Shown: positions 1,108-19,793 of the stretch, piece by piece
How positions within the stretch are numbered: position 1 is the stretch's first letter
Layout: the number at the start of each line of letters is the position of its first letter
Origin: a virus
Strand: one strand, 5' to 3'
DNA length: 20,862 nt
IMG/VR virus record: IMGVR_UViG_3300049825_000196
Location: 1-20,862 of that record
Notes under the pieces: generated by a model
Told to the model about the DNA's origin: nothing
Seen by the model: only the letters and a program-made list of their open reading frames with translations
Databases searched by the model: none
Position numbers and translations under genes: made by a program

Positions 1108-1565
1108 TTGTGTGGCCCTGTAAATCCGGTTGCTGTCATGAATTCCTTGGCGGCTACGGCGGCGACCGTCAGTCCCGTTAAAATGCCGACAATCCAGTTG
1201 CCCTTGTTTGATGGCGGCGGCGGGGCCTGGGAAATTGCATCAATCCTGGACAGCAGCTCGGCATGGCGCGTGCCGCACAGGGGCGACGGCGGCAGGTCGT
1301 GCAGGTTGTCGATGACGTGGTTGATCTTGCCTTCCAGTCGATCAAAGATTTTATCGCGGTCCTCGGCGCTTTTTTCAATCAGCTTTTGCTGGGCTTCAAA
1401 GCCCGCCTCAAGCCTGCCCAGCATATGATCGGTGTTGCGTTGCGCCTCTCGTGCCATTACTGTTGCCCTCTCCAAGCCCATCCTCGCGGTTGACCTACCG
1501 TTGGTGATGCCGTTGTCCTCAAGCCAGTTCTTGTCCTCATTAAAGCGATCCCGAAGCTGAAACAT
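1104..1565 (-). CDS. Coiled-coil protein with C-terminal membrane anchor; candidate holin or lysis accessory protein
   Basis: 153 residues. Residues 29-95 are strongly helical and charged, with heptad-like spacing (GLERATVMAREAQ, LEAGFEAQQKLIEKS, RDKIFDRLEGKINHVIDNL). A Pro-rich segment (APPPPSNK) precedes one transmembrane segment, NWIVGILTGLTVAAVAA (about 123-139), and a short tail. This coiled-coil plus C-terminal TM layout resembles XhlA-type phage lysis accessory proteins, and the position directly before a secreted protein and the endolysin supports a lysis role. The ATG at 1565-1563 has no clear SD and lies 26 bases inside the tailspike gene, so it may be translated by coupling; an internal ATG at 1481-1479 (residue 29) is an alternative start. 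The stop overlaps the next start as ATGA. The gene is solid; the holin role is an inference from topology and context. Confidence 0.7.
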   Translation of the reverse strand: MFQLRDRFNEDKNWLEDNGITNGRSTARMGLERATVMAREAQRNTDHMLGRLEAGFEAQQKLIEKSAEDRDKIFDRLEGKINHVIDNLHDLPPSPLCGTRHAELLSRIDAISQAPPPPSNKGNWIVGILTGLTVAAVAAKEFMTATGFTGPHK

Positions 1566-3777
1566 ACCAGACAGACCCGTGCCACGTCACATCAGCCCAC
1601 TGTCCCGTTGTCAGTGCTCTTGTTCCCCCAGCTCCGCCCACAGTAAGCGTGAACGCTCCGCCACCGATACGCGTAACCCGATATGTCAGGCCAGCATGAT
1701 CTGCCGTCATGTTTACAGTTGGAAACGTTACAATTCTATTTGCCGTCAAAGTGCCAGCATGAAGAATTTTTGTTGCTGTCACAAATGGGTCAATCGTGAA
1801 ATCTACGTCTGTAGATATTCCAACATATGCCCTCTCGCGCGGCAAACTTGCAGAAATTTTCGAAACACCATCAACCGTCGTGTAGATTGTAACGGCTTTA
1901 GTTTCGTCAAAAATCTCGCTTCCTGCTTTCAAATTGCAGGATGGCGCGGTCCACGTTTTGTATCGCCCCTTGATGAGCGGTGTAAGAAAGCTACTTGCTG
2001 TTGATGCAATTTCGAAGGGGCTGATGAACGAAACCCCATCACCCTGAATATCAATGGTATTGTCTACAAAATGTGGAGTAGGTGAAACGCCGGATACGCC
2101 AAAGCAAGTAAACGCGTATGTTGTGCGGGTGACCGGGAATGTGTCTACAATACGGTTTCCGGCTATACTTGTCATGCCTTTGGACGATTTGAAGTCAAGG
2201 AAAAATGGTTTTTTGTACGCCGAGATAATCCCGGCGATTTTGCCCTGTCCGCAGTTTACCAACAGGTTATCATTAATTTCCAAAACGTTGACGAACGCCG
2301 AAAGCCCAATGCCTGCAATTGGGGCGTTGTATACTTCATTGTCATTGATGATAAAATTTTCGCACTCCATTAATGGATTGATTGTATGCCTCAAGCCAAT
2401 TCCAGATGAACTTGAAGACCCTATATTTCCCGGATCAGCATTTTCAATCTCAAACGTAATTTTGTTTCTGCGAATGGTGAGATCCTTGATAGGCATATCA
2501 TTGCTGAGGTCGATCCCGATTCCCATGGCAGCATTCGCCCCAACAGCCGCTGCGTATGTAGCTTGCCTGATGTTGATGATGTTGTCTGAAACTGAGGTAT
2601 TTTTAATGCCGTAGCCTGTGATGTGGGCCAAATATTTAGCCGACCAAATGTTAACACCGGACAGCTTAACATCCAAAGTATTGTGAGTTATCATGCTGAG
2701 GTCGGTGTCCTCAACCGTTATTCCAGTGACGTTCATTCCAACCAGATACCCACTGATTTTATTACCCATCACATGTTGCCGGGTGCAATGCGACTCAATG
2801 GCTGTTGTGGCCTTTGCCGTCCAATCGGCTTGAAAGAAATTGTCTGTGATTATCGCATCTTCACCAGAAACATAAACCACAGACTGGTCGTAACTTATAT
2901 TTCCGGGGTTTTGCCCCATCTTTAGAAACTTGTTTCGAGAGATGACTGGGCGAATTGCCAAAGCGCCGCCAACGCCAACATAGAAATCATTTACAGCCTG
3001 GCTATTCTTGACGATGTTGTTTGTCAGTCTGATGTCAGCGCCACCGCCAATGAAGCTTGCGCGGTAGCTTGCAAGCATTCCAGAAGCATCAACAGCTCCA
3101 ATATTGTTGTTGGCTTGATTGTGGTCGAAAGTACAACCATCAATCACAAAACCTTCTGAATCTCCGCCACCAAAAATAGTACGGTAGGTTCCCGCACCAT
3201 TGGCAATCTTAAATGAGGCATCCAAAACTTTTTGCCCCGCGAGAACGGGGATGATAGTTGCACCAACACCAGCGGGCGAGGGCTTTATCGCATAAACACG
3301 CCCCGGCCTGCCGCGCAAAACACGCCCTGCAACAGAATGAGCCCGAACAAGCATTTGCGTATCATCGCCAGCCGTGTCAGTTGGTAAATAGAAATCATCA
3401 TAATATAGATCAGCCGACGAGTACTTCTTCTCCCAATACTTTGTCGGATCGGGAGTTGATGTAATGTAACGCGAAAAATCATTGGCCGTATTGGCTGCTG
3501 CAATATCCGCCTGAATGGTGGCCGTTTGCACGGAGATGGTTTTCTTCTCCCATTGGGAGCCATTATAGACTGCTAACGGAAAGCTTATAGGCGACGCCTT
3601 CAATGCCGCTGCTGTTTCGAATGCCGGAAGTGCCTTGTTTATTTTTGGCAAAAGTTGATCAAATGCAGCCTTGATTTCTCCAAGTGGCAAAACTTGCTGA
3701 GATTGAGCGTCTGAACTTGCCCCGTTTGCCGCTGCATATCCTATGTTATAATTGAATACATCGCCTGCTATTGTCAT
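1540..3777 (-). CDS. Tailspike, right-handed parallel beta-helix
   Basis: 745-residue receptor-binding protein, probably a homotrimer that binds or cleaves host surface polysaccharide. Residues 1-110 are a presumed virion-attachment region that looks unlike the rest. From about 200 to 580 there are repeated beta-helix rungs with the asparagine-ladder pattern of pectate-lyase-like proteins: N254, N282, N313, N339, N366, N399, N438, N480, N504, N541 and N573, each followed within two residues by a hydrophobic. Examples are TDNFF, SDNII, INDNEV and INDNLL. The last about 95 residues (RIVTFP, TYRVTRIGGGAFTLTV, WADVTWHGSVWYVSASGSL) look like the small beta C-terminal cap found on many phage spikes. 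The start has a good SD (AGGA, 8 bases upstream). A specific depolymerase reaction cannot be read from the sequence. Confidence 0.88.
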   Translation of the reverse strand: MTIAGDVFNYNIGYAAANGASSDAQSQQVLPLGEIKAAFDQLLPKINKALPAFETAAALKASPISFPLAVYNGSQWEKKTISVQTATIQADIAAANTANDFSRYITSTPDPTKYWEKKYSSADLYYDDFYLPTDTAGDDTQMLVRAHSVAGRVLRGRPGRVYAIKPSPAGVGATIIPVLAGQKVLDASFKIANGAGTYRTIFGGGDSEGFVIDGCTFDHNQANNNIGAVDASGMLASYRASFIGGGADIRLTNNIVKNSQAVNDFYVGVGGALAIRPVISRNKFLKMGQNPGNISYDQSVVYVSGEDAIITDNFFQADWTAKATTAIESHCTRQHVMGNKISGYLVGMNVTGITVEDTDLSMITHNTLDVKLSGVNIWSAKYLAHITGYGIKNTSVSDNIINIRQATYAAAVGANAAMGIGIDLSNDMPIKDLTIRRNKITFEIENADPGNIGSSSSSGIGLRHTINPLMECENFIINDNEVYNAPIAGIGLSAFVNVLEINDNLLVNCGQGKIAGIISAYKKPFFLDFKSSKGMTSIAGNRIVDTFPVTRTTYAFTCFGVSGVSPTPHFVDNTIDIQGDGVSFISPFEIASTASSFLTPLIKGRYKTWTAPSCNLKAGSEIFDETKAVTIYTTVDGVSKISASLPRERAYVGISTDVDFTIDPFVTATKILHAGTLTANRIVTFPTVNMTADHAGLTYRVTRIGGGAFTLTVGGAGGTRALTTGQWADVTWHGSVWYVSASGSL

Positions 3778-3799: not shown

Positions 3800-4594
3800 T
3801 TATGGGAAAACACGGAACACAACGTCCCACCTTGAATTCGTGAATGAACCGTCACCAAGAGTATTTTTCTGAACAACGGACAGGCTGCTCCCAAGACGAG
3901 GGGAAAGGCCAACGCTTGTTGCATTGAACCAAACCGATGAATTTACGCTCACGTTCGCAATAATCGCATAATCGCCAGCCGCATACTCATTGTCAGCAAG
4001 GTTGCATTTTAGATACCAATCAACGCGCGAAGGAACAGCAGGAAGGCCATGGGGGACAACTTTAGCTGTGCTAACCGCAAACGGACCAGCGTTAAATTCA
4101 ACAAAATTCCCCTTGATGCCAGTTAATGCCGATCCGTCTGCGACTGGAAGTTTGTTTGCTGCGCCTGCATATTGAACAACGTTACCAATCGCCGCACCTG
4201 TATTTAGAACAGATGCGGTTCCAAGCGCCATTGCCGTTCTTGCCTCCGCTTGCGTGGAGGCAGCGACAATACTAAGCCCTGTCGCGCCACCAGTGGTTGT
4301 TGCAAGATTTGAAAGACCAAGATTTGATCTAGCCGTTGAAACGCTTAATAAATCAGAAAGATTAGACGCCCTGAGCAAACACGAAGAAAAACTGACGGAG
4401 GCCAAAACATCCGCCTTGGCTAAACTCCATGAAGCAAAACCAGTTCCACCTAGCGATTGCGGCCACGCCTGATTGAGCGTTGCCGTTATATCCGAAACCC
4501 AATTGTTATAGGGCGCTGGTAAAATTGGCTGGCCCTGAATGCCGTTGGTGTTGGCGGGGGCTGAGTATAAAAATGTGCCGGAATCTCTTGGCAT
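3800..4594 (-). CDS. Tail fibre protein
   Basis: 264 residues starting at ATG 4594-4592. This start is preferred over an upstream in-frame TTG at 4615 because AAGGA lies 7 bases before the ATG and because MPRDSGTF matches the MPRDSSG-type N-terminus common in phage tail fibres. The N-terminal part (to about residue 60, with NNWVSDITATLNQAW) is the presumed virion-binding region. It is followed by a fibre-type repeat region (ASNLSDLLSVSTARSNLGLS, AEARTAMALGTAS) typical of trimeric fibre shafts. The last about 95 residues (FNAGPFAVSTAKVVPHGLPAVP to the end) form a beta-rich C-terminal domain, probably the receptor-binding head. It precedes the tailspike by 22 bases, so the virion may carry two adhesins, or this protein may be an adaptor or branch. 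Confidence 0.82.
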   Translation of the reverse strand: MPRDSGTFLYSAPANTNGIQGQPILPAPYNNWVSDITATLNQAWPQSLGGTGFASWSLAKADVLASVSFSSCLLRASNLSDLLSVSTARSNLGLSNLATTTGGATGLSIVAASTQAEARTAMALGTASVLNTGAAIGNVVQYAGAANKLPVADGSALTGIKGNFVEFNAGPFAVSTAKVVPHGLPAVPSRVDWYLKCNLADNEYAAGDYAIIANVSVNSSVWFNATSVGLSPRLGSSLSVVQKNTLGDGSFTNSRWDVVFRVFP

Positions 4595-4732
4595 GATTAT
4601 TCCTTGTTTTGACAATGACGGGAGAGACGCCTAAAAAGGCGGAATGAATATTTTCAGAGAACGAGAATTAACAACTTCAGAATGGGTTGGTCTAGTTTGT
4701 GTTGCGCTAGCTATTGCTTGGGCGCGAGAATA
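4595..4732. other. Largest intergenic gap, with a small palindrome
   Basis: This 138-base gap between the ejection-type gene and the tail fibre is the only sizeable interruption in the minus-strand cassette. It holds the fibre SD (AAGGA) and a perfect 5-bp palindrome, CGCCT-AAAA-AGGCG, at 4628-4641. No T-run follows on the minus strand, so this is not a convincing intrinsic terminator; it could be an RNA processing or stability hairpin. A TTGTTA...TATTCA pair on the minus strand with an 18-base spacer is a poor promoter match and I do not call it. A small plus-strand ORF covers most of the gap (separate entry). Confidence 0.5.
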
Positions 4733-4751: not shown

Positions 4752-6292
4752 GTGGATAGGCCGCCCATCATTAACATTCTGGCAATCAGCGCCTTATTGG
4801 CCTCAATCGCCTTTTGTGTTTTGTTCTTCGGGAATACCGCTGCTGTGTTTCCACCGCCTGCAATCAACTTCTCGATCTTTGCGGCCTTGCTCTTTTGAAT
4901 TGCGCCGCCAAGCATCTTGGACAGTGCGCCACCCGCCATGATGGACGTTGCAGTGATGGGCTCAGCCAACATACCCGCCGCACCTATAGCCGCGACACCA
5001 CCATGCTTAAATGGACTTAGCTTTCCAAGTACGCGCAACGTATCTCGCCCGCCCTGATTGAATATCACATCCTCAACCATCGCTTTTTCGTCAGGCGTAA
5101 AGCCACGACTCTTTTTTGGATTGTTTAGAATTTTCGATAGCTCTTGCTTGACGGTGTTCTCGAGGTTACCTCCAGAACCTGTTCTCGCAGCGCGATTTTC
5201 CGCCAAAGACAAAGCGTTGCGAACAGTTTCAATTTTCTTTTGTTGCGAGTAAAGCTTGTCAGCCTCTTTGCGCAGCGTTGCAGCTTTTGTTGCATCCCCG
5301 ACCAAGACATGATCTGGGTTTGGGTTCATCTGAAAATCGTCAATCTTGGTTTTCACAATGTTCAAAAGTGCGTTGCTGCTATTTTTGCCGGGGGCGAACT
5401 GCTCCCCCGCTACGGACCGAATAGATTGCAGGCCTTCCGCCGTTACGGGAAGGCCTGAGCCTACATCCTTGCGAAGCTCTGAAATAGCAACATTTGCGCC
5501 GGGCTGGGCAACAGGGCGAAATGTGCGATTTGCAAATTCTTTTTCTATGGTGCTTAGGAGCTGTTGCGCACCTTCTGGTTTGTAAATGACATTTTCACCT
5601 TTAGCCGCATCGTATTTTTGCGAAGCAAGAGCCTTTATTTCATCGTAAGTCGGGACTTTTGTTTTTTTGCTGAATAGACCTGCGAATTTTGAAGCCGCAT
5701 TGCCAATCAGTTGACCCGCCGCTCCGCCAGCCGCCCCAAATGCAGCGCCCGTCGCAACGTCATTATCGTGACCGTAGGCATCAAGAGCGCCAAGCGCAGC
5801 GCCGTCGGCTGTCAACCCGAGATATTTCCCCAGCTTTGGAATGTTTTGAGCCGTTGCACCAAGTTTTTGTAGCTTTGCCATTGGGGCAAGCGAACCAATG
5901 ACGCTTGCCGGGATACTTGCCGATCCCGCCCTGGCATGTGCATCGCTTACTTGGCCGCGATTTTTGGAAAGCTCTTGATTGTAATCAGTCCCTTTGATCT
6001 TTGATTCAGCATAAGCGGCTGCTTTGGGAAGAAACCCAAATGTTGCACTGTCTCCGATTACTGTTGCAATGTCATCGGCGGCAACCAATGGTTTTTTCCA
6101 TTCTGGCAAACGCTCAAATTGTCCAGCCTTGCCAACAGCTACATCAGGAATTCCGGCCATAGGGTTAAATTTTCCTAGCGGCGGTGGAACAGTTTGAGTT
6201 TTCATCATTGCCGCAATGCGCGTTGCGCCAGCCTCATCGCCCGCATTATGGGCATTGCGCAATGCCTTCATGAGTGTTGCTTGATCTGCCAT
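4733..6292 (-). CDS. Probable ejection (internal virion) protein
   Basis: 519 residues, no recognised enzymatic domain. The N-terminus (TLMKALRNAHNAGDEAGATRIAAMMK) is the short alpha-helical repeat often found at the start of phage internal or ejection proteins. Residues about 125-205 and 425-470 are rich in Ala/Gly with moderately hydrophobic helices (AALGALDAYG, AAFGAAGGAAGQLIGNAA, GGVAAIGAAGMLAEPITATSIMAGGAL), suited to entering a membrane during DNA ejection. The middle is charged and helical. It lies after the lysozyme protein and before the fibre, the position of the last ejection protein in P22-like gene orders (gp16 analogue by position, not by demonstrated homology). The start ATG lies 1 base after the previous stop (TAA 6296-6294); the SD is weak (CGGCGG), suggesting coupling. 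The ejection role is an inference from composition and synteny. Confidence 0.7.
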   Translation of the reverse strand: MADQATLMKALRNAHNAGDEAGATRIAAMMKTQTVPPPLGKFNPMAGIPDVAVGKAGQFERLPEWKKPLVAADDIATVIGDSATFGFLPKAAAYAESKIKGTDYNQELSKNRGQVSDAHARAGSASIPASVIGSLAPMAKLQKLGATAQNIPKLGKYLGLTADGAALGALDAYGHDNDVATGAAFGAAGGAAGQLIGNAASKFAGLFSKKTKVPTYDEIKALASQKYDAAKGENVIYKPEGAQQLLSTIEKEFANRTFRPVAQPGANVAISELRKDVGSGLPVTAEGLQSIRSVAGEQFAPGKNSSNALLNIVKTKIDDFQMNPNPDHVLVGDATKAATLRKEADKLYSQQKKIETVRNALSLAENRAARTGSGGNLENTVKQELSKILNNPKKSRGFTPDEKAMVEDVIFNQGGRDTLRVLGKLSPFKHGGVAAIGAAGMLAEPITATSIMAGGALSKMLGGAIQKSKAAKIEKLIAGGGNTAAVFPKNKTQKAIEANKALIARMLMMGGLSTQNSQP

Positions 6293-6293
6293 T

Positions 6294-8207
6294 TTAACCG
6301 CCGTATTTTTTCAAAAGTTCTTCGTCTGACATTTCAGGCGCGGACGGTTGCGGCCCACCAAATTTTAGGCGAGACTCAGCCCTTGCTTTTCCCTTTAAGA
6401 CGACGGCTTTGTAATCATTTAAGGCCTGCATAAATGCCTCAGTTGATGTAGCAGTGTTCATGCGATTAATTGCCTTTGTCGCAGTGTCACCTTCTGCATT
6501 AGAAAGCGAGCCAAGACCGCGCATTTGCTGGATTGCTGTGGCAAAGGCCCCGGACTTGGATTGGTCAACCAAATTCTGGAAATCATAACCACCCGTTCCG
6601 GGAATCATGTTGCCGTATGATGATGCCCCGGTGCCGCGCTCAAGATAAGGGCTTGTTTCGATTTGGTCCAAAATATTAAGTGCGCTATCAGCCGCCGCAA
6701 TATCGCCGGGGGCCGCGACCTGAGCGGCACCAGAAGCGCCACCTATAGCGTCTTCTTTTGCTTTTCCAGCAACGTCAATTCTGACTGGTTGCGCAACGCC
6801 ATCTTGGGGCAGGGCCCCCCCCCGCTTGTCAACAGGAACAAAGCCTGTTCCTGTATTGAGGTAGTCAAGACCGGGGGCAAGAGCATTCACGCCTTCTGGC
6901 AACGGCGCAAGCGTCAGGCCACCGCTTTTATTCGTCTGCATGGCAACAAGATTTCCGGTTTTGTCTTTGCCATAAACGACTTGCAGGCCGTGTTCATTTT
7001 TGTCTGTCAAATCCTGCGGGGGATCATAAACAACTTGCCCTGTCTTGCGGTTCACCAAGCGATTGCCAACTGAAACAACATCGCCTTGCGCCATATTGTC
7101 AATTTGTGCCTGCTTGTACGTTTGGTCAAGCACTTCACCTTTTTGCTTCATCTGATAAGCAGGGTCTTGCTTTTGCATTTCTTGCTGAATGGTCATTAGC
7201 GCCATTTGCTTCATTTCAGGCGTTGCCCATGCATTGCTATAGACCTTCATAGCCTCATTGAACTGAGCACTAGGGTCTGACTGAGTGGGTAGTTCTGGCT
7301 GTTGCTGCATAGGCGCTTGTGGTGAGGCCTGCGCCTGCTGTTCCATTGGCTGTTGATAGGCTGCTGGTTGCGGCAGGGCAGTCTGGAACGCCTGTTGCGG
7401 ATCGCTGGACGCAACTTGCTGTCCCGCTCCTGCAATCTGATTAGCGTATTTGATGCGACTGTCCATGTGGGGTATGCCGGGACGCAAGTAATTTTGCGAA
7501 ACAATCTGTGCGGCTTTGGCAGGATCATTGATCCCCTTGAGTTTAGCCAAAACACCGCCTTCTGAACCTTGAAGCTCGTTTTTGAGAAACCCATAATTTG
7601 CTTCTGGCGATGACGGATTAAGGCCATTCTGCGCCGCCCACGATTCAAATTGACGGCGGCGAGGCCCGGTCCACTGCGCCCAGCCGAAACCACCACGCGA
7701 ACCCGCCACAGTTGGATTGATTTCTTGCAAGGTTTTGAAATTTCCACTTTCATGAGCAAGATTCCCAGCAAAACCAGCGGCGGCAGCAGGGGAAAGCCCA
7801 AAATCCTTTTGCAGCCGTTGCGCAACCATCTGCCCGGTTTGGCCGTCGCCAAACCCCTGCATTGCAGCGCCCGTAGGCTTTGCTACAGGGCCGTTCTGTG
7901 TTTGTGGGGCAGATATGCCGCCCGGAACGCCGGGTGCGCTAGGCGATGCCGTCTGCGGCGCTGACTGGCCAATCGTTTTAAGGAACGAATCAAAGACTGA
8001 TTGGCCGGATGCGTTTCCTGCTGTTTCAGCCTGCCCCGCCTTGTGCCGTCCATAACCAATAGCCAGCCCCTTCAGCACGTCACCAATCCCCGCGCCAACA
8101 TTTTGCGCGCGACCCATACCGCCCGCCATCTGGTCGAGCATGGCGCGACGCTGCGCCACCTGATCCGGTGTCATTGTGCGAGGATCGAAAAAACCAAGTG
8201 CGGTCAT
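6294..8207 (-). CDS. Virion-associated lysozyme / ejection protein
   Basis: 637 residues, two functional parts. Residues about 120-260 match the phage tail lysozyme domain (PF18013-type): GFAGNLAHESGNF with probable catalytic glutamate E153, then GGFGWAQWTGPRRRQFESWA, NYGFLKNEL and AAQIVSQNYLRPG. It would open the peptidoglycan locally during DNA entry. Residues about 261-330 form a Gln/Pro/Ala linker. The C-terminal about 140 residues (ADSALNILDQIETSP, GYDFQNLVDQSKSGAFATAI, MRGLGSLSNAEGDTATKAIN, KGKARAESRL) follow a helical pattern widespread in podoviral ejection proteins. The SD AGGAG lies 9 bases before the ATG, inside the end of the preceding gene. A run of nine G on the coding strand (complement of 6815-6823) encodes part of KRGGALP. 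The muralytic domain is firm; the C-terminal assignment is by resemblance. Confidence 0.85.
   Translation of the reverse strand: MTALGFFDPRTMTPDQVAQRRAMLDQMAGGMGRAQNVGAGIGDVLKGLAIGYGRHKAGQAETAGNASGQSVFDSFLKTIGQSAPQTASPSAPGVPGGISAPQTQNGPVAKPTGAAMQGFGDGQTGQMVAQRLQKDFGLSPAAAAGFAGNLAHESGNFKTLQEINPTVAGSRGGFGWAQWTGPRRRQFESWAAQNGLNPSSPEANYGFLKNELQGSEGGVLAKLKGINDPAKAAQIVSQNYLRPGIPHMDSRIKYANQIAGAGQQVASSDPQQAFQTALPQPAAYQQPMEQQAQASPQAPMQQQPELPTQSDPSAQFNEAMKVYSNAWATPEMKQMALMTIQQEMQKQDPAYQMKQKGEVLDQTYKQAQIDNMAQGDVVSVGNRLVNRKTGQVVYDPPQDLTDKNEHGLQVVYGKDKTGNLVAMQTNKSGGLTLAPLPEGVNALAPGLDYLNTGTGFVPVDKRGGALPQDGVAQPVRIDVAGKAKEDAIGGASGAAQVAAPGDIAAADSALNILDQIETSPYLERGTGASSYGNMIPGTGGYDFQNLVDQSKSGAFATAIQQMRGLGSLSNAEGDTATKAINRMNTATSTEAFMQALNDYKAVVLKGKARAESRLKFGGPQPSAPEMSDEELLKKYGG
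6815..6823. repeat. Nine-base homopolymer within the lysozyme gene
   Basis: Nine consecutive C on the plus strand, read as nine G in the coding strand (Arg-Gly-Gly-Ala codons). The frame is intact across it here. I noticed no comparable G/C run elsewhere in the window. Confidence 0.9.
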
Positions 8208-8210
8208 TCT

Positions 8211-9197
8211 TTAAGCTCCTAGGGAGAATGCTTTTGTGTAATTGACGCGGAATAGGCCGTCCGAACCCTTGGCAACAGCATCAGGCATGGTTTTCATTAG
8301 CTCTTGCGCCATGACGCCTAATGTTTTTGGCGTTCCCTTATCTTGACCCTTGTAGCGATACTCATAGACATTCTGGCCTTTGACTGTGCCCACTTTTTCA
8401 ATGTCTTTCTTTGCGCGACGATCAGATAATGCAAATGCGCTACCAAGGCCAGAAAACAACCCGCCGTACATGGATTGGTTGGCTTGATACCTATTCATCC
8501 GCTGATTGTCGTAGTTTGCGCGAATGCCAGCATAATCAACCGTTCCGACGTTGCCCACATTTGCGCCATTGAAATTAGGTGTTTGCAATTGTGTGCCAGA
8601 TGAAATCGCCAACGGTTCGTTAAATCGTTGATTGCGTGTCGCGAGTGATTGCTGGAAGCCTTGGCCTTGCGCGTTCATAAGGGCCTGTAAACGTGCACTG
8701 CCCTGACCCGCTGATTGCGACTTCATTTCACGGTCATAAGCCGCGCTGCCTTGTTTTATGCCTTGCGCCGCCATGCGCGAGCGCAACGCCTCATCGGCCT
8801 GCATATTACCTTCTGAGTTCAGCGTGTCATAATTCTTTGCAAACCATTGTTCATGGTCGCCTGTGTTATATTGGAATGGAGATGCACCAAGTTTATTCAG
8901 TTCCTGTGTTTGTGAATTGCCGTACTTGGCAAGGTTCAAATCACTGGATTGGTTTTGGTCGAAAATAGCCTGCTGCCCCGGCGCAAGTGTTTCCGTGGTG
9001 TTGTTGCGCGCAACGCTTTCCATCTTTCCCGTCAATGGATTCATTACAGGAACATACTCAAGGCTTGATGACTTGACGCCGTAAGGGTTGGTAACGGTGC
9101 CAGAATTTGCAATCGTATTCGCATTTGCAGCAAGCGTGTTTTGCCCTGCTTGTGCGCCTGCTGTTGCTATCGGATCGCTTGGTTTTGGTGCCTTCAT
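8211..9197 (-). CDS. Ejection-module protein with C-terminal S74 intramolecular chaperone domain
   Basis: 328 residues. Residues 1-250 are polar, low-complexity helical sequence rich in Asn, Gln, Ala and Gly (TVTNPYGV, LAPGQQAIFDQNQ, ADEALRSRMAAQGIKQGSAA). They lack fibre repeats, and I recognise them only as a type common in podoviral head/ejection modules. Residues about 256-328 are a peptidase S74 / endosialidase chaperone-like domain: LSDRRAKKDIEKVG, VYEYRYKG, LGVMAQEL, PDAV and FRVNYTKAF. S258 and K263 have the Ser/Lys +5 spacing of the known self-cleavage dyad (S911/K916 in endosialidase), so the tail may be removed after trimer folding. It follows the GNAT gene with an ATGA overlap (9197-9194); GAGG lies about 8 bases upstream. 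By position it could be a gp7-like ejection protein or a tail component. Confidence 0.8.
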   Translation of the reverse strand: MKAPKPSDPIATAGAQAGQNTLAANANTIANSGTVTNPYGVKSSSLEYVPVMNPLTGKMESVARNNTTETLAPGQQAIFDQNQSSDLNLAKYGNSQTQELNKLGASPFQYNTGDHEQWFAKNYDTLNSEGNMQADEALRSRMAAQGIKQGSAAYDREMKSQSAGQGSARLQALMNAQGQGFQQSLATRNQRFNEPLAISSGTQLQTPNFNGANVGNVGTVDYAGIRANYDNQRMNRYQANQSMYGGLFSGLGSAFALSDRRAKKDIEKVGTVKGQNVYEYRYKGQDKGTPKTLGVMAQELMKTMPDAVAKGSDGLFRVNYTKAFSLGA

Positions 9198-12988: not shown

Positions 12989-14005
12989 TTAAGCGGCTGG
13001 GTTGGAGTCACGAATTTTAGCGGTATGCAATGGATTCTTGAGGATAAGATTCCCCATGAAGCCCACATGCTGCACAACGCCGTCTTGGTTGACGGGCATT
13101 TGTGTTTTGCCAATTTTCGAGAAATTACGTTCAGGATGATAGCGGAAGCCAAGGGCTGACGTATCAATGACGTATGTCACGTTGGACGGCATGGCGGAAC
13201 CAATACCACCTTCCAAAACGACATCCATCGTCTTGCCTGCACCGTAGAATTTGAGCGACGTAAAACCGCCCTTGCCTACGCCGTTTTCATCATTGATACG
13301 CTGAATCGTGGTGAGCGAATCAGTGTACGCCTGATAATGCTCAGCGGCCATGCAAAACACGTTCGGCCCTTTATTGCCGCGCGACATTTGAATGACAACT
13401 TGCTGCATGACCTTCTGAGAAGACGCCGCATTGAACTGCGTAATCGTAGCGCCAAAGTCAGTTTGTACGTCAAAGGTCCGTGTGCGCCATTGTGTGGCAA
13501 CAGCACGGTCAATGCCGCCATAAGTGCCAGTCGCAGGGTTTGTCGGGATTGCCAACTGCAAGCCACCAATCTGCTTTGCAGCGGTGCCGTCAGAGTGCAG
13601 GTCTTCAACAAAACGGTCTACCAATTCATCTTCAGCGGCGCTCATGTGCGCCTTGAAAATATCCTTGAGTTGGCTTGGCCCGCTGTTCTTCAAAATATCT
13701 TCATTTGAAAGAACAATTGAAACCGCCGCCATCTTTGGTTCGAATTCCGCATCCGTGAACAAGTCTGCTGTTTTTGGGTTAAGGAATTCAAGGCCGCTGT
13801 AGCGGGTGTAAGTGCCGGACTCACCATAAAGCAAACGCTCACGGATTGTCGGGCCAGAGAAGGTCGTGAACATATCACGCTGCTTCATCATAAACAGGAT
13901 TGCATTGGAGTTCGTTACGAGATCGACATAGCCGCTCGAACGGTCCTCCAAAGCCAATGAGAACGCTTCTTGCAATCGCTCACTATAGCCGGGGGTAATA
14001 GGCAT
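12989..14005 (-). CDS. Major capsid protein (HK97-fold type)
   Basis: 338 residues. The sequence pattern is that of a podoviral coat family: an N-terminal helix (YSERLQEAFSLALEDRSSGY), RERLLYGESGTYTRYSGLEFLNP, FEPKMAAVSIVLSNEDILKNSG, then EDELVDRFVEDLHSDGTAAKQIGGLQLAI and a GTYGGIDRA loop. The C-terminal part (ALGFRYHPERNF, DGVVQHVGFMGNLILKNPLHTAKI) ends the fold. The gene follows the scaffold gene, the usual order. No protease motif is seen. SD AGGA lies 9 bases before the ATG, within a 5-bp AU-rich hairpin (ATCCT/AGGAT, 14014-14027) that could modestly limit initiation. Family assignment rests on recognised motifs and position. Confidence 0.85.
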   Translation of the reverse strand: MPITPGYSERLQEAFSLALEDRSSGYVDLVTNSNAILFMMKQRDMFTTFSGPTIRERLLYGESGTYTRYSGLEFLNPKTADLFTDAEFEPKMAAVSIVLSNEDILKNSGPSQLKDIFKAHMSAAEDELVDRFVEDLHSDGTAAKQIGGLQLAIPTNPATGTYGGIDRAVATQWRTRTFDVQTDFGATITQFNAASSQKVMQQVVIQMSRGNKGPNVFCMAAEHYQAYTDSLTTIQRINDENGVGKGGFTSLKFYGAGKTMDVVLEGGIGSAMPSNVTYVIDTSALGFRYHPERNFSKIGKTQMPVNQDGVVQHVGFMGNLILKNPLHTAKIRDSNPAA

Positions 14006-14032: not shown

Positions 14033-15094
14033 TTAACCGATGCCAAGCTGAGCAAACGAACGCTCGACGGCTTCGGCGGCTGATGACGCGGGCTTACGGA
14101 ATGCGGGGTTTGAGCCCGACACGGGAGCGCCAGTCGTCGAAAGTGAACCTTTTTGGGTTTGAGCCTTTAGGTCCGGTTTTGGTTGGAGTGCGGCTTGTGC
14201 TTGCACAGTAGCGGGTTTGATCCGTTCTGCCATGGCATAAGCCTCGTCCAAGTCATCTACCATGCCAGCCCTTGCAAGCTGGCCCATGGAATCTCTGAGT
14301 TCATTAAAGCGCGGCTTGTCTGATGCCCACGCCGTAATTTGCTGTTCTATTTCTGCATCCTGTCGTGATTGGATTGACGTTGACACGCCGGAAAGCTGTT
14401 GCGTAAGCTGTTGCACCTGCTGTTGCAATTGCAGGATGGTTGATTCCTGCTGCGATGGCGCTTGTTGTTGTTGGCCTGTGATTTCCGCAATGAACTGCTG
14501 CGGTGTTTTCCCGAGAAATTCACAAATCTTCGTGAACCCCTGCACTGGATTTTGCTCTAGTGCAGTTTCCATTGTCACATAGTTGTTTAGCGCGGTCTCG
14601 ATTGTTGTTCCGTATTGGCTTGCCATGTCCTCAAAAGGCTTCAATGGCGCGTAACGGTCCTTATATTCGTTTAGGCCCTTCTCCATTTCAGAGAAGGCGC
14701 GATTGACTTCTCCCTTGACGGCTTCCGGCACAGCAGCCCATGCTGCCTTAGCGTCCGGCGAGAACCGGGCGGGCACATCAACAATGGGCGTGACTGGCTG
14801 TGCTTCTGCAATTGGTGCAGTAGTAACTGGCTCGACCTTTGCAACTGGTGCCGCATCTTCACTCTTAGGCGAGAAACGTCCGCGCTCATCACGACTTGAA
14901 AGTGCACTTGGAACTTTCTCAGTGTCATTGCCGAACACTTTGTCAATTGCGTTGTCGATTGAGGAATCAAGTGAATTTGAAGTATTTTCCATTGCATCGT
15001 GCCGCGCCGTCTCTTGACTAGCGGGTGCTGCTGATGGTGTTTCAATAATAGAGGATTGTTCCGCCGGGGCGGCTGTCGTTGAAATGTCAGTCAT
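14033..15094 (-). CDS. Capsid scaffolding protein
   Basis: 353 residues, strongly hydrophilic, and acidic in its N-terminal third. An unstructured Ser/Thr/Ala/Pro-rich N-terminus (1-105) contains SSRDERGRFSPK, a motif often seen in podoviral scaffolds. Then come helical segments (ARFSPDAKAAWAAVPEAVKG, GLNEYKDRYAPLKPFEDMAS, VQGFTKICEFLGK), a Gln-rich helix (about 208-235), and a typical AYAMAERIKP region. The basic C-terminus (FRKPASSAAEAVERSFAQLGIG) is the likely coat-binding end. It sits immediately before the major capsid gene. It acts in the procapsid and leaves the mature head. The start uses the duplicated leader instead of a standard SD. Confidence is high from composition and synteny. 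Confidence 0.85.
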   Translation of the reverse strand: MTDISTTAAPAEQSSIIETPSAAPASQETARHDAMENTSNSLDSSIDNAIDKVFGNDTEKVPSALSSRDERGRFSPKSEDAAPVAKVEPVTTAPIAEAQPVTPIVDVPARFSPDAKAAWAAVPEAVKGEVNRAFSEMEKGLNEYKDRYAPLKPFEDMASQYGTTIETALNNYVTMETALEQNPVQGFTKICEFLGKTPQQFIAEITGQQQQAPSQQESTILQLQQQVQQLTQQLSGVSTSIQSRQDAEIEQQITAWASDKPRFNELRDSMGQLARAGMVDDLDEAYAMAERIKPATVQAQAALQPKPDLKAQTQKGSLSTTGAPVSGSNPAFRKPASSAAEAVERSFAQLGIG

Positions 15095-15123: not shown

Positions 15124-15459
15124 TTATGTTCCAAAGCCAGCTCTGGAAAAGGCTTTATCCACCGTGTCGCTGATTGCCTTACGATCAACTTTGGGCCGTT
15201 TAAACGGCTTGGGATTTGTTACCGACGGATCATTGCCAACCTCAACAACGCCCGCTTGCTTGTATTGTTTGCGCAATGCAGATTTTGAATCATACATTTG
15301 CCCGTCCGTCATGGAACGCACCGCGCCCATGGTGTCAAATATAATTCCCGGCGACGGCAATTCAGACCGTGTGAATGTTTTTGGAGTGTAACAATTGGAA
15401 GGCCAAGGCATATCTAAATCGTGCCAGCCATCGCATATCTTGCAAAGTCTTTTTGTCAT
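15124..15459 (-). CDS. Small phage protein with putative zinc-binding Cys/His cluster
   Basis: 111 residues. The N-terminus has C6-x2-C9-x3-H13-x9-C23 (within CKICDGWHDLDMPWPSNC), four possible zinc ligands. Then come a stretch GIIFDTMGAVRSMTDGQMYDSKSALRKQYKQAGVVEVGND, in pieces similar to a conserved phage family that sits between portal and scaffold genes, and a basic tail (KPFKRPKVDRKAI). Function unknown to me; a role in head assembly or nucleic-acid contact would fit. The start overlaps the previous stop as TAATG (15461-15457) with no SD, so translation must be coupled. Confidence 0.7.
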   Translation of the reverse strand: MTKRLCKICDGWHDLDMPWPSNCYTPKTFTRSELPSPGIIFDTMGAVRSMTDGQMYDSKSALRKQYKQAGVVEVGNDPSVTNPKPFKRPKVDRKAISDTVDKAFSRAGFGT

Positions 15460-16523
15460 TAAGCCATCATCATAAATGCTAAGAGTTCTTCTTCTTCGTC
15501 ATCCGCGCGTTTAATTTGCGCCGCAACTTTATCAACTAATTTCTTGATTTCAGTCACGCTTGCTGAAATCCCCTCAATGTCAATTTCAGAACGAACAGAC
15601 TTAATAACCTTTTTAATTTCAGTGACCGTGGGGATTTTACCCGGTGCAGTTACACGCTCAAATGCGGCCTCAATCAGTTCTTCTAATTTGCGTCGATCTT
15701 CGTCCTGTCGCTTGTCTCGCTTGCGTCCTATGCCGTCATATTCAGCGGATTGTTGTGGCGCTGTGATAACGCCCTGCGCCGCGCCGGGAAGGAAAGAATA
15801 GATATAAGAAACCGTCGCACCCGACGCTACAGCAGCAACCCCGCCGGAAGCAGCACCGGGCAGAAACGAATAAATTTCAGATACGGAGGCACCAAGCGCA
15901 GTTGCATTGGATTGCCCTGCGGCAACACCCGCAAGAAAACTATAGTTTTCAGAAACAACAATGCCAGATGCCGTAGCGTTTATTTGACCTGATGCAGTGC
16001 CCTGTAAAAACGAATAAATTTCATTTACAGTGGACCCGGGGGCGGTGGCGGAAACTTCGCCAGTCGCGGCACCCGGGAGAAATGAATAAGCCTCGCTTAT
16101 AAGCGATCCTGACGCAACCCCATTAATGGCACCAGCACTCGCAGCACCGGGCAGAAACGAATAGAACTCCCCGACTGTAGCCCCTGCGGCGGTGGCGGAA
16201 ACTTCGCCAATGCCAACGCCGCCTAAAAATGCGTAAATCTCCGAAACAACAATGCCAGATGCCGTAGCGTTAAGAACCGCCTCACCTAAATCAACCCAAG
16301 CATCCGAACCATCAACAGTTGAATACGCCGTTAGCCACTGTAGTCCATAACTATCGGCTAGCTCAATCGTGAATTGCTCATTGCCGAGCGCAATGCTTAC
16401 ATTATTTGGTGGGGTGGCGTCAAACTCAGAAAGCGCACTAAAGCGGTTTTTAATGATAGTTGCGGCATAATCCGCTTCGTCATCAAACCAGACCGGAACA
16501 TTATCAAGAAAGTAAAAAGCCAT
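15459..16523 (-). CDS. Repeat-containing virion-type protein with seven 24-residue units
   Basis: 354 residues in three parts. Residues 1-80 are a unique N-terminus (FYFLDNVPVWFDDEADYAAT). Residues 82-250 are seven tandem units of 24 residues (one of 25), consensus G-x-V-S-A-T-A-x-G-x-x-V-S-E-I-Y-S-F-L-P-G-A-A-x; the YSFLPGAA core is almost invariant. Residues 260-345 are a charged helical region (RKRDKRQDEDRRKLEELIEAAF, given in part) with two related VTEIKK segments (299-305, 322-328), ending in an acidic stretch (DDEEEE). The repeat part looks like an extended beta-rich shaft or spiral. The location before the scaffold suggests a head-associated or tail fibre-like structural protein. The SD region (GGTGGG) is in an inverted repeat. 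The function is unknown; Ala/Gly beta repeats of this kind occur in phage structural proteins. Confidence 0.75.
   Translation of the reverse strand: MAFYFLDNVPVWFDDEADYAATIIKNRFSALSEFDATPPNNVSIALGNEQFTIELADSYGLQWLTAYSTVDGSDAWVDLGEAVLNATASGIVVSEIYAFLGGVGIGEVSATAAGATVGEFYSFLPGAASAGAINGVASGSLISEAYSFLPGAATGEVSATAPGSTVNEIYSFLQGTASGQINATASGIVVSENYSFLAGVAAGQSNATALGASVSEIYSFLPGAASGGVAAVASGATVSYIYSFLPGAAQGVITAPQQSAEYDGIGRKRDKRQDEDRRKLEELIEAAFERVTAPGKIPTVTEIKKVIKSVRSEIDIEGISASVTEIKKLVDKVAAQIKRADDEEEELLAFMMMA
15774..16280 (-). repeat. Seven tandem 72-75 bp coding repeats
   Basis: In-frame repeat units encode residues 82-105, 106-130, 131-154, 155-178, 179-202, 203-226 and 227-250. Some distant units are nearly identical at the DNA level: units 1 and 5 share GAAACAACAATGCCAGATGC plus a further 9 bases, and units 2 and 4 share a 21-base block, whereas adjacent units differ. 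This points to recombination or shuffling among units. Confidence 0.9.
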
Positions 16524-17001: not shown

Positions 17002-17424
17002 TTATGGATTTGATTTGCGAACAATTGAAGCATTGAGCGTGAAAGTTCCAGCAACAGTCACAACGTCAGCGCCAAAATCATCAACAGCCACCAATTCATC
17101 AGCCGTTGCAGCGCCTCCGCGCGATTTATAATAGATAGCCTTGCGAGCTGTAATGGTAGAAGCAGGCCAAGTCACCTGCGCAAATGTAATGTCAACACGG
17201 TCGTTTGCCGTGTCCACTGCTGATACAGTAGCCGCAACAGCAATTCCGCCAGCCGTGTAACCCGTGCCGACAACTTCATTTGTCACATCACTACGTTTGG
17301 CGTGAGTGTCTTTATTTTCAACATAGGTTGACGTGACCAGCATAACTTTGAAAGCATCTGTATCATAGTCGATTGAACCAATCGCCTCGTCGCGCAATGC
17401 TGAATTGTAGATTAAACTGGCCAT
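17002..17424 (-). CDS. Conserved phage structural-type protein, function unknown
   Basis: 140 residues. IYNSALRDEAIGSIDYDTDAFKVMLV, then EVVGTGYTAGG, DRVDITFAQVTWPASTITARKAIYY, and a final VAVDDFGADVVTVAGTFTL. This order of motifs is familiar from a family of small phage virion proteins (all-beta, with conserved GYTAGG and W-S-T-x-T-A-R-x-A). I cannot assign a precise role. It starts in a TAATG overlap with the portal stop (17426-17422); AGGTG lies 6 bases upstream inside the portal gene, so it is translationally coupled to the portal. Confidence 0.65.
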   Translation of the reverse strand: MASLIYNSALRDEAIGSIDYDTDAFKVMLVTSTYVENKDTHAKRSDVTNEVVGTGYTAGGIAVAATVSAVDTANDRVDITFAQVTWPASTITARKAIYYKSRGGAATADELVAVDDFGADVVTVAGTFTLNASIVRKSNP

Positions 17425-19793
17425 TATTTCACCTGTGCTTCTGAGACAAATTCAAATCCATCACGGCCACGCATTTTACGCGGTGCAGATATTGCCTTTG
17501 CGATTGATTCCTGCCCCTGCTGAATCGCAGCGGACTGTGTAGATATTTCACTTAACATTTGAGCCATCATTGTGAGAGCCTGATTAAAGGCATCACGATC
17601 TTCTTTAAACGAATAATCCGCTGGAATTCCAGCGCTAACCATGGCCTCTTTTTGTTTTTGCGAGTGCGTTTGTGTATCAAAATCCATTTTACGCTGATGG
17701 TCTGTGGCGGCGCGTTCTGATTCCATTTGCGCTACCTTGGCCTGATGCTCACGCTCGCCCTGAACGTGCTCATGCGCCTGTGCATTAGCTTCCATGGTGC
17801 GCCTATGGTCCTCTGCCTTAATCGCGGCCTCCTCGCGCTTCTGTTGCACGGTGATTTCCGCAATCTTAACCTTAGCGTCAATGTCAGCTTTCTTGAGCTG
17901 CAATTCGGCTTCGGTTTTCTTTTGAAGCGCATCGGCTTCAGCCTTAGCCTTCACTTCTTCAGGACTTGGCCCTTTTGGCTGTTGCGCGATTTGCGTAATC
18001 TGCGTTCCAAAATCCTCAATAGCGCCCTGCAATGGTCTCCCCGCGCGGAAAGCATCAGCAACGAACTTGATAGCCTCGGCCACAAACGGGCCGCTTGCAG
18101 GCATCTGCTGCACCAATGGCGCGGACTGCTGAATAAAGCCACCCAATGCCGTCATGAATTCAGTGCGGCGAGCCTTTTCGGCATCCTCATTTGGCTGAAT
18201 TGTCGAATCGGTTTCAATGTCAAGAATGAACGGGCGCAAGCGTTGGTCGCGCATCATTTCAACCAGCTTTTCAATCGTCACCGTTTGTTCAAGCTGCTGC
18301 ACTTGTTGCATAACCTGCTGTTTAGCCTGTTCAATGGCTTGCGGGTCTTGTTGTGCCGCCATTTGCGCATCAGGGCTTTGCGCCATTTGCGCGGCCTGTT
18401 GCACTATTTGTTGAATCTGCCCTTGAACCTCTTCTTGCGAAGGAATCTGCATTTGAGACATGCTTAGCAATGTTTTAGACTGGAAGTTCTCGGCCATGAT
18501 TTCACCGCCTATGCGGGCCAAATCACGCGCGAACCTCACCAGCTCGCCTTGCTTGTCTCGAATGCGGATAGAACCGTACTGTGATTTAAGCTCTTGTGCC
18601 CCCAATGTCTCGTTTGGATCAGACGAGCCGCGCATGATGTCAGACATGCCAGTTATTTGATAAACGTCATCGATCAACTGTTTGCGAAGCGACACCAGCG
18701 CAACAATGGTTTCGGCAACCTCACGAATGGGGAGCCATATCAGCGCATCCTTAAGGCCAGCGCCACCCAATGCCGCGAAGTTTGAAACCGGGATGACGAG
18801 TGAGTCGTCCTTGCTCCGAATGGCTCTTTCAACAGCGGTGCCAATATCTTCTGAGCCAGCAGCATAGAAGCCCTTGAGCTTAAGGCCGTCTGCAAGGTTT
18901 GAAATGCGCGACGTGAGGATATTGATTTCCTCAAGCTGGTCTTTGTATTGAACATAATCAGGAATGGGCAGCGTCGTGCGGCGCTGCAACGTGCCAAATG
19001 CGGGCTTTGGAAACGGAAAAAAACCATCAAGCTTTATTGGCGGGTCTTGCTCATCAAGCGTCGTTTCGCAGCCGGGACTAACCCAAATGACCTTTTTCTT
19101 GCCCTTGTGCCAAATTTCCCAAACACGAGCTTTTTTTTCGCCCTTGTATTCCGAGCCCTTATCCTTGCCTTGATCGAACTGAACACTGCTTATAAGCGTA
19201 TGGGGGAATCGCTTTTTGAATTTCTCAATCGACAACCAACTACCGCGAGCGCCCCAGTCAACCTCGCGCCAATTACGGGCCGGATCATGCAGGAAGTCCA
19301 TGCGGTCAACATGGTCAAAACAAAGCCGTTCCGTGAAGTCCGCCTCAGTCTCGCCCGCCGCCTCATAGCGCACCCAAGCAGTGCCACGACCTGACACCGC
19401 CAAATCGTCACGCACGTTAACCATAACCGAGTTTACGTCATCACGATCAAATGACACTACAAGGCACCGCTCAAGCAAGTCAGACGCAATGCGGTTGATT
19501 TCACGCCTATCCTTGAAACGCGGTACGACTACAGGGATAGGTGGACGGGCGTAAATCGAAGGCTTTAAAACCTCCAAATTAGCCCAAAACATTTTGAATT
19601 CCCGGTCAACCGAACCTTCTGCCAAGGCTTTCAATTCGCCTAGCTGTTTGTCAAGATTGTCCATCTTCTGTTGGTAAACACTGAAATACTTCTCAGCGTC
19701 AGAAATCAAATCAAGCCAAGGCTTCGCCATGCCGGGCTCAGCTTGGGTGGCGCTGGAGTCGCCTCCCATGCCCGTTGTCATTGGTGAAACCAT
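17424..19793 (-). CDS. Portal protein (P22 type, long C-terminal helical extension)
   Basis: 789 residues, close in size to P22 gp1 (725). It forms the dodecameric ring at the packaging vertex. The core spans about 30-440, with motifs usual in this family: an N-terminal helical start (AEKYFSVYQQKMDNLDKQL), MFWANLEVLKPSIYARPP, DDLAVSGRGTAWVRYE, DFLHDPARNWREVDWGARG, GFFPFPKPAFG, then the long-helix region QLIDDVYQITGMSDIMRGSS and ETLGAQELKSQYGSIRI. Residues 450-500 are Gln-rich, and 605-715 form a long, highly charged, probably coiled region (barrel-like). The end (PRKMRGRDGFEFVSE) is basic then acidic. The SD is modest (CGGAAT). The start is 6 bases after the preceding stop. The family call is firm. 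Confidence 0.9.
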   Translation of the reverse strand: MVSPMTTGMGGDSSATQAEPGMAKPWLDLISDAEKYFSVYQQKMDNLDKQLGELKALAEGSVDREFKMFWANLEVLKPSIYARPPIPVVVPRFKDRREINRIASDLLERCLVVSFDRDDVNSVMVNVRDDLAVSGRGTAWVRYEAAGETEADFTERLCFDHVDRMDFLHDPARNWREVDWGARGSWLSIEKFKKRFPHTLISSVQFDQGKDKGSEYKGEKKARVWEIWHKGKKKVIWVSPGCETTLDEQDPPIKLDGFFPFPKPAFGTLQRRTTLPIPDYVQYKDQLEEINILTSRISNLADGLKLKGFYAAGSEDIGTAVERAIRSKDDSLVIPVSNFAALGGAGLKDALIWLPIREVAETIVALVSLRKQLIDDVYQITGMSDIMRGSSDPNETLGAQELKSQYGSIRIRDKQGELVRFARDLARIGGEIMAENFQSKTLLSMSQMQIPSQEEVQGQIQQIVQQAAQMAQSPDAQMAAQQDPQAIEQAKQQVMQQVQQLEQTVTIEKLVEMMRDQRLRPFILDIETDSTIQPNEDAEKARRTEFMTALGGFIQQSAPLVQQMPASGPFVAEAIKFVADAFRAGRPLQGAIEDFGTQITQIAQQPKGPSPEEVKAKAEADALQKKTEAELQLKKADIDAKVKIAEITVQQKREEAAIKAEDHRRTMEANAQAHEHVQGEREHQAKVAQMESERAATDHQRKMDFDTQTHSQKQKEAMVSAGIPADYSFKEDRDAFNQALTMMAQMLSEISTQSAAIQQGQESIAKAISAPRKMRGRDGFEFVSEAQVK

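Follow-up and report, generated by a model that had tools for sequence, protein, structure and literature searches.

A tandem-repeat protein in the portal-scaffold slot of an Mx8-related podophage: seven in-frame units, shared DNA blocks and a recurrent C-terminal domain

We found that a head-module protein encoded in the window (the whole DNA stretch analysed here, a complete IMG/VR record of 20,862 bases) belongs to an unnamed recurrent family, in which a fixed C-terminal end stands behind differing repeat arrays in a defined gene slot. We observed an array of seven units, exact DNA blocks that are shared by these units, C-terminal homology over about 30 proteins of the same slot, and arrays and unit numbers that differ among them. 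We consider it somewhat probable that the protein is an accessory virion surface protein (a fibre or an adhesin) of an Mx8-related podophage, made of a C-terminal dock and an evolvable beta shaft.

The repeat array and its shared DNA blocks

The coordinates of the protein, its array and the surrounding genes are given in Table 1. Six of the seven units have 24 aa and unit 2 has 25. The core YSFLPGAA is exact in units 2, 3, 6 and 7, and is found as YAFLGGVG in unit 1, YSFLQGTA in unit 4 and YSFLAGVA in unit 5. The preliminary description, which had given all units 24 residues and this common core, was thus right for six units in length and for four in the core; it had placed the array at 15774-16280, shifted by 3 bases from the correct 15771-16277. 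In a self-alignment the 24-aa periodicity of the protein lies 17.8 SD above that of the shuffled sequence, and the seven-unit in-frame array over residues 83-251 of this head-module protein is real. This periodicity, together with the shuffling and resampling tests on the shared blocks, rejects a chance origin of the array and blocks. We also rejected a misassembly or collapsed repeat, because the units differ by 32-51% in DNA and an array is present in the same gene order on the independent contig L002, the closest relative.

Table 1. Coordinates of the repeat protein, its parts and the neighbouring genes in the window
Feature	Position	Strand	Remarks
Repeat protein	15459-16523	minus	354 aa; N-terminal segment, seven repeats and C-terminal helical domain; from ORF and translation
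N-terminal segment, residues 1-82	16278-16523	minus	MAFYFL..NVPVWFDDEADYAA..; common to L002 only
Repeat array, residues 83-251	15771-16277	minus	seven in-frame units; period 24
Unit 1	16277-16206	minus	
Unit 2	16205-16131	minus	75 bp
Unit 3	16130-16059	minus	
Unit 4	16058-15987	minus	
Unit 5	15986-15915	minus	
Unit 6	15914-15843	minus	
Unit 7	15842-15771	minus	
29-bp exact block, unit 1	16243-16271	minus	copy in unit 5 at 15952-15980; distance 291 bp
22-bp exact block, border of units 1/2	16188-16209	minus	copy at border of units 3/4, 16041-16062; distance 147 bp
23-bp exact block, unit 2	16141-16163	minus	copy in unit 6 at 15850-15872; distance 291 bp
C-terminal helical domain, residues 252-354	15462-15770	minus	family-defining; from leave-out profile and alignment
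Acidic-hydrophobic tail, end of C-terminal domain	15462-15503	minus	DDEEEELLAFMMMA
Portal protein (phrog_12082)	17424-19793	minus	upstream limit of slot
Slot gene phrog_644	17002-17424	minus	no assigned function
Slot gene, 147 aa	16546-16989	minus	82% identical in L002
Small conserved protein, 111 aa (phrog_21669)	15124-15459	minus	downstream limit of slot
Scaffold-like protein (phrog_25516)	14033-15094	minus	head and packaging
Major capsid protein (phrog_9953)	12989-14005	minus	bait for collecting relatives

The DNA identity is 0.68 for the unit pairs 1-5 and 2-4, against 0.51-0.58 for neighbours. The same codon is used at 11 of 17 identical amino acids between units 1 and 5 and at 10 of 17 between units 2 and 4, compared to 79 of 253 in the other pairs pooled. 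The earlier claim that non-adjacent units are more alike than neighbours holds for these two pairs and for the shared blocks. As a general rule for whole units we rejected it, since the mean identities over all pairs do not differ (0.542 for adjacent and 0.549 for non-adjacent units) and the best whole-unit identity falls within the codon-column-shuffled range (P=0.19; P=0.013 for the second best).

The three exact blocks of 29, 23 and 22 bp are spaced by four, four and two units, respectively, and their distances are all multiples of 3. Three runs of at least 20 bp were reached in 0 of 5000 codon-column shuffles, with a null mean of 0.02 such runs, and the 29-bp run was reached under within-column codon shuffling with P 0.0002. 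With synonymous-codon resampling the longest repeat was at most 22 bp in 200 trials. The sharing of blocks by non-adjacent units is thus beyond chance, which supports the recombination between units that had been suggested, in the sense that parts of units have been duplicated or converted at spacings of two and four units, and not as a rule for units in general. An alternative hypothesis, which we regard as rather unlikely, is that the array is old and stable, the blocks 1/5, 2/6 and 1-2/3-4 being left by one past duplication with no ongoing exchange or copy-number change. The whole-unit identities are only weakly beyond column shuffling, in agreement with such an array, whereas the occurrence of exact blocks at two different unit distances argues against it.

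The arrays of relatives bear on the same question. Between the window and L002 the capsid is 78% identical, the neighbour gene 82%, the C-terminal domain 38%, and the N-terminal segment 48% over 81 residues (E 8.7e-26). Their arrays have no detectable homology (E 0.11), with periods of 24 and 21 aa, respectively, and this change of period between ends that are still alignable speaks against an old, stable array. So do the unit numbers in two pairs with the same repeat type, which are 11 and 9 at a capsid identity of 89%, and 7 and 6 at 86%; the stable array is favoured by the closest subgroup (capsid identity at least 97%), where all four phages have six units. Copy-number variation, proposed in the preliminary description as a possibility, is therefore seen among same-type relatives but not in this subgroup. 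A constant number and order in all relatives, which had been named as evidence against the proposal, was not found at moderate distance, while the number is constant at short distance. No other contig with the window's own repeat was found among the viral, isolate-phage and genome contigs searched, and the copy-number change rests on other repeat types. L059 and L128 have the repeat type and the C-terminus in common and differ in their N-terminal parts. In general, the C-terminal end is retained in the relatives and the repeats before it are very unlike, as if one shaft could be exchanged for another. The unlike arrays before the common dock may have been swapped or may have diverged in place beyond recognition.

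L002 has further features. Its large terminase gene (L002:42-2309) carries an intein (PF14890, E 2.7e-12), and the part that codes for the intein also contains, read in a different frame, an endonuclease VII ORF (L002:836-1303; PF02945, E 2.2e-20). The capsid gene of L002 is separated from the following structural gene by a stand-alone HNH endonuclease ORF (L002:10027-10563; PF13392); the ORF list of the window has no HNH-type ORF at the corresponding place.

The gene slot and its protein family

The gene order on the minus strand of the window is terminase end, portal, phrog_644, 147-aa protein, repeat protein, 111-aa protein, scaffold-like protein and major capsid, in agreement with the order given earlier. 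After the major capsid gene come the genes for tail and other structural proteins, then one that resembles a tail-fibre gene, and one for a long protein whose beta-helix matches are weak. The virion structural protein at 8211-9197 has a terminal Peptidase_S74 chaperone domain (PF13884), and another long protein, next to it (6294-8207), carries a Phage_lysozyme2 domain (PF18013). The relatives of the capsid protein include those of Rhizobium phage RHph_I3_18, Bradyrhizobium phage ppBjS10J-1, Myxococcus phage Mx8 and Ruegeria phage 45A6, and the others are mainly in Rhizobiales genomes. Earlier work has dealt with the Mx8/45A6 lineage of podophages and with how it is spread among Rhizobiales (PMC10386132).

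We surveyed about 130 loci around the capsid relatives, several of them overlapping. In most of the complete loci the genes for the small protein, scaffold and capsid come after the portal gene, and the gap between portal and small protein has zero to several extra genes per locus. These include genes for Laminin_G_3 proteins (L015, L024) and one in L109 whose product contains collagen and NosD domains and has matches to tail-fibre PHROGs. The position before the scaffold gene had been called unusual for a fibre-like shaft. We find that the gap is a recurrent cargo slot in this capsid lineage, and the position is not odd because the slot also holds surface-type proteins in relatives. The Laminin_G_3 and collagen/beta-helix cargo likewise makes the suggested head fibre or surface-binding protein plausible as a role that we infer.

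The fibre-like gene (3800-4615) and the beta-helix gene (1540-3777) of the window are both far from the repeat gene, so the repeat protein would be an additional appendage. The location of these canonical genes at the far end of the window also counts against a tail or neck appendage, which would be attached through its C-terminal domain to the portal, connector or tail hub even though its gene lies in the head module. Such an appendage would fit with the repeat gene being two genes after the portal gene and with the slot proteins of relatives that match families named tail protein or tail fibre; the PHROGs family names, however, are no test of location, and we think a tail or neck appendage unlikely.

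About 30 distinct slot proteins of Mx8-related podophages, mostly of Rhizobiales, have a common C-terminal domain of about 100 residues. Members occur, for example, in prophages of Afipia massiliensis DSM 17498 (L059) and Aestuariivirga sp. (L053). The domain begins with a helix (core DL..II..AF), which is followed by a second helical part, an acidic stretch and 4-6 mostly hydrophobic end residues. When the window protein and L002 were left out of the profile, it still found the window protein at E 5.7e-10, or 1.4e-8 with the tail removed. In a specificity control over 4,644 ORFs the best non-family ORF had 0.2 (0.0084 without the tail) and the best reversed ORF 0.11. The C-terminal profile has one match in ten and none in six of 16 genomes or records. 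The window protein has the C-terminal domain with its tail, the slot position and an array within the 20-24 aa period of the family, where the array is optional. Of the 20 members whose variable region is long, 17 have a clear tandem periodicity of 20-24 aa (z 4.7 to 23.5), and ten members have a short or absent variable region and no array.

We distinguished about eight kinds of repeats by eye, on sequence likeness: YSFLPGAA (window), NASLTDAASTL (L002), ADAGSFAITGTAA (L031), SVTEADDTLSATG (the group of L035, L057 and L096), LSATDGADAA (L059, L128), LTANDVEAxTEVSSP (L055, L092), AATGAATGTGTAAG (L097) and SxEAFG (L072). Apparently independent arrays of similar period recur ahead of the same domain, suggesting a benefit from a shaft with this geometry. 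This recurrence, and a slot rich in surface-type proteins, argue against an accessory factor that acts in head assembly or inside the cell, with the repeats as a passive spacer and the array variation as drift. We consider such a factor improbable; the short members without an array, and the position of the repeat gene close to the scaffold-like gene, would be compatible with it.

Searches beyond the slot gave little. No Pfam, PHROGs or NCBIfam model describes the C-terminal domain or matches the whole repeat protein, PDB sequence searches with it returned nothing credible, and tblastn at E up to 1 found no homologues in isolate phages. The YSFLPGAA codon pattern matched two viral contigs, L140 and L141, and gave no further carrier of the window repeat; both matches were judged to be chance, as the loci are unrelated and the pattern is not within a repeat. 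The two-sequence profile A1 found no relative in the genome contigs. Against 398 genomes of the order of L050, the window protein had two weak repeat-region matches (E about 4e-4), and the C-terminal profile had at least one strong match (already known) and three weak ones among the first 11 candidates per genome, which is no measure of rarity.

Two observations concern the neighbourhood of such genes. The gene that often precedes the family gene has a recurrent C-terminal motif RQALRLVAAATAGK...DRIVATVDSQGNRTAI (L019:32-1320, L024:1953-3235, L038:1303-2875, L044:1893-3385, L111:2330-3387), and the two genes may form a functional pair. In another head module, that of Curvibacter phage P26059A (L142), a gene at 4776-5960 encodes L057-like repeats and is flanked by the terminase/structural genes on one side and by those for protease, decoration and major structural proteins on the other. 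Positions like that between portal and scaffold may hold repeat proteins more widely, as in L142.

Predicted fold and proposed role

The AlphaFold2 model of the full protein, computed from nine family sequences of which eight are C-terminal pieces, shows most units as a pair of strands and is helical from residue 263 onwards, with a low mean pLDDT of 56.5 and about 56-71 in the repeat blocks. For a four-unit fragment, modelled with an alignment of the units to one another, the pattern of strands was similar and the mean pLDDT was 48.6. Foldseek returned no match at E below 0.001, and the leading PDB matches were pectate lyases, not significant. For a beta-helix or solenoid, with stacked coils of about 20-25 residues, we thus have low-confidence strands and these non-significant matches. 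The collagen triple-helix model has no match in the protein and the sequence has no G-x-y run. The shaft may fold as a beta-solenoid, or perhaps as an intertwined trimer of the triple beta-spiral kind that occurs in viral fibres.

In the accessory surface protein that we favour, the C-terminal helical domain with its acidic-then-hydrophobic tail would dock the protein on the virion, at the head, vertex or neck. The seven repeats would form the shaft, and either the N-terminal segment would be held off the particle or the shaft itself would contact the host surface. What we infer concerns the virion location, oligomeric state, shaft fold and ligand. The dock would be kept by selection. The shaft would be remodelled in frame as units are duplicated or convert one another, and in the longer term it might give way to unlike arrays of similar period. 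The ten members without an array count against this reading, since they show that the C-terminal domain can do its work, whatever that is, without the shaft.

We speculate, more tentatively than for the surface role itself, that the family represents an undescribed appendage class, in which one C-terminal dock takes many unlike beta-repeat shafts with a common period of 20-24 aa. The length would be tuned by in-frame recombination and the type by swapping, providing a fast-evolving surface contact apart from the tail spikes. To our knowledge, little has been described of appendages beyond the tail spikes in Rhizobiales podophages. If the proposal is true, accessory host contact could be followed in genomes by simple means, through a slot that pairs one fixed anchor with interchangeable shafts.

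Comparison with known systems

The head fibre gp8.5 of phi29 has an N-terminal beta-barrel base and a C-terminal helix-turn-helix supercoil shaft (PMC6542822). Both it and the window protein are encoded in podophage head modules and combine a single attachment domain with a fibrous part made of repeats, which in gp8.5 protrudes from the particle. The polarity is opposite, since the conserved end of the window protein is C-terminal and helical and its repeats are predicted to be beta, in a low-confidence model. The window protein does not show the phi29-type arrangement and has no family or PDB sequence match.

The BACON arrays of crAss-like phages have internal duplication and non-adjacent units that group together, and horizontal exchange of units has been proposed for them (PMC6949934). 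They resemble the window array as phage tandem arrays with alike non-adjacent units. However, BACON is a defined Pfam domain in tail-associated proteins, whereas the window unit has 24 aa, no Pfam match and a place in the portal-scaffold slot; a search of Pfam-A at E up to 1 gave no BACON match in the window protein.

Agrobacterium phage 7-7-1 has flexible head fibres that contact the host flagella, the fibre protein not being identified in that study (PMC12796354). It probably shares the host order and has head fibres, but it is a myophage with a contractile tail, and the likeness is one of function only. Tail fibres with a conserved attachment end and variable distal parts have also been described (PMC10386132), and the window family is similar to them in combining a conserved attachment domain with a mosaic variable part. 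The polarity is reversed, as tail fibres keep the N-terminus and the window family keeps the C-terminus.
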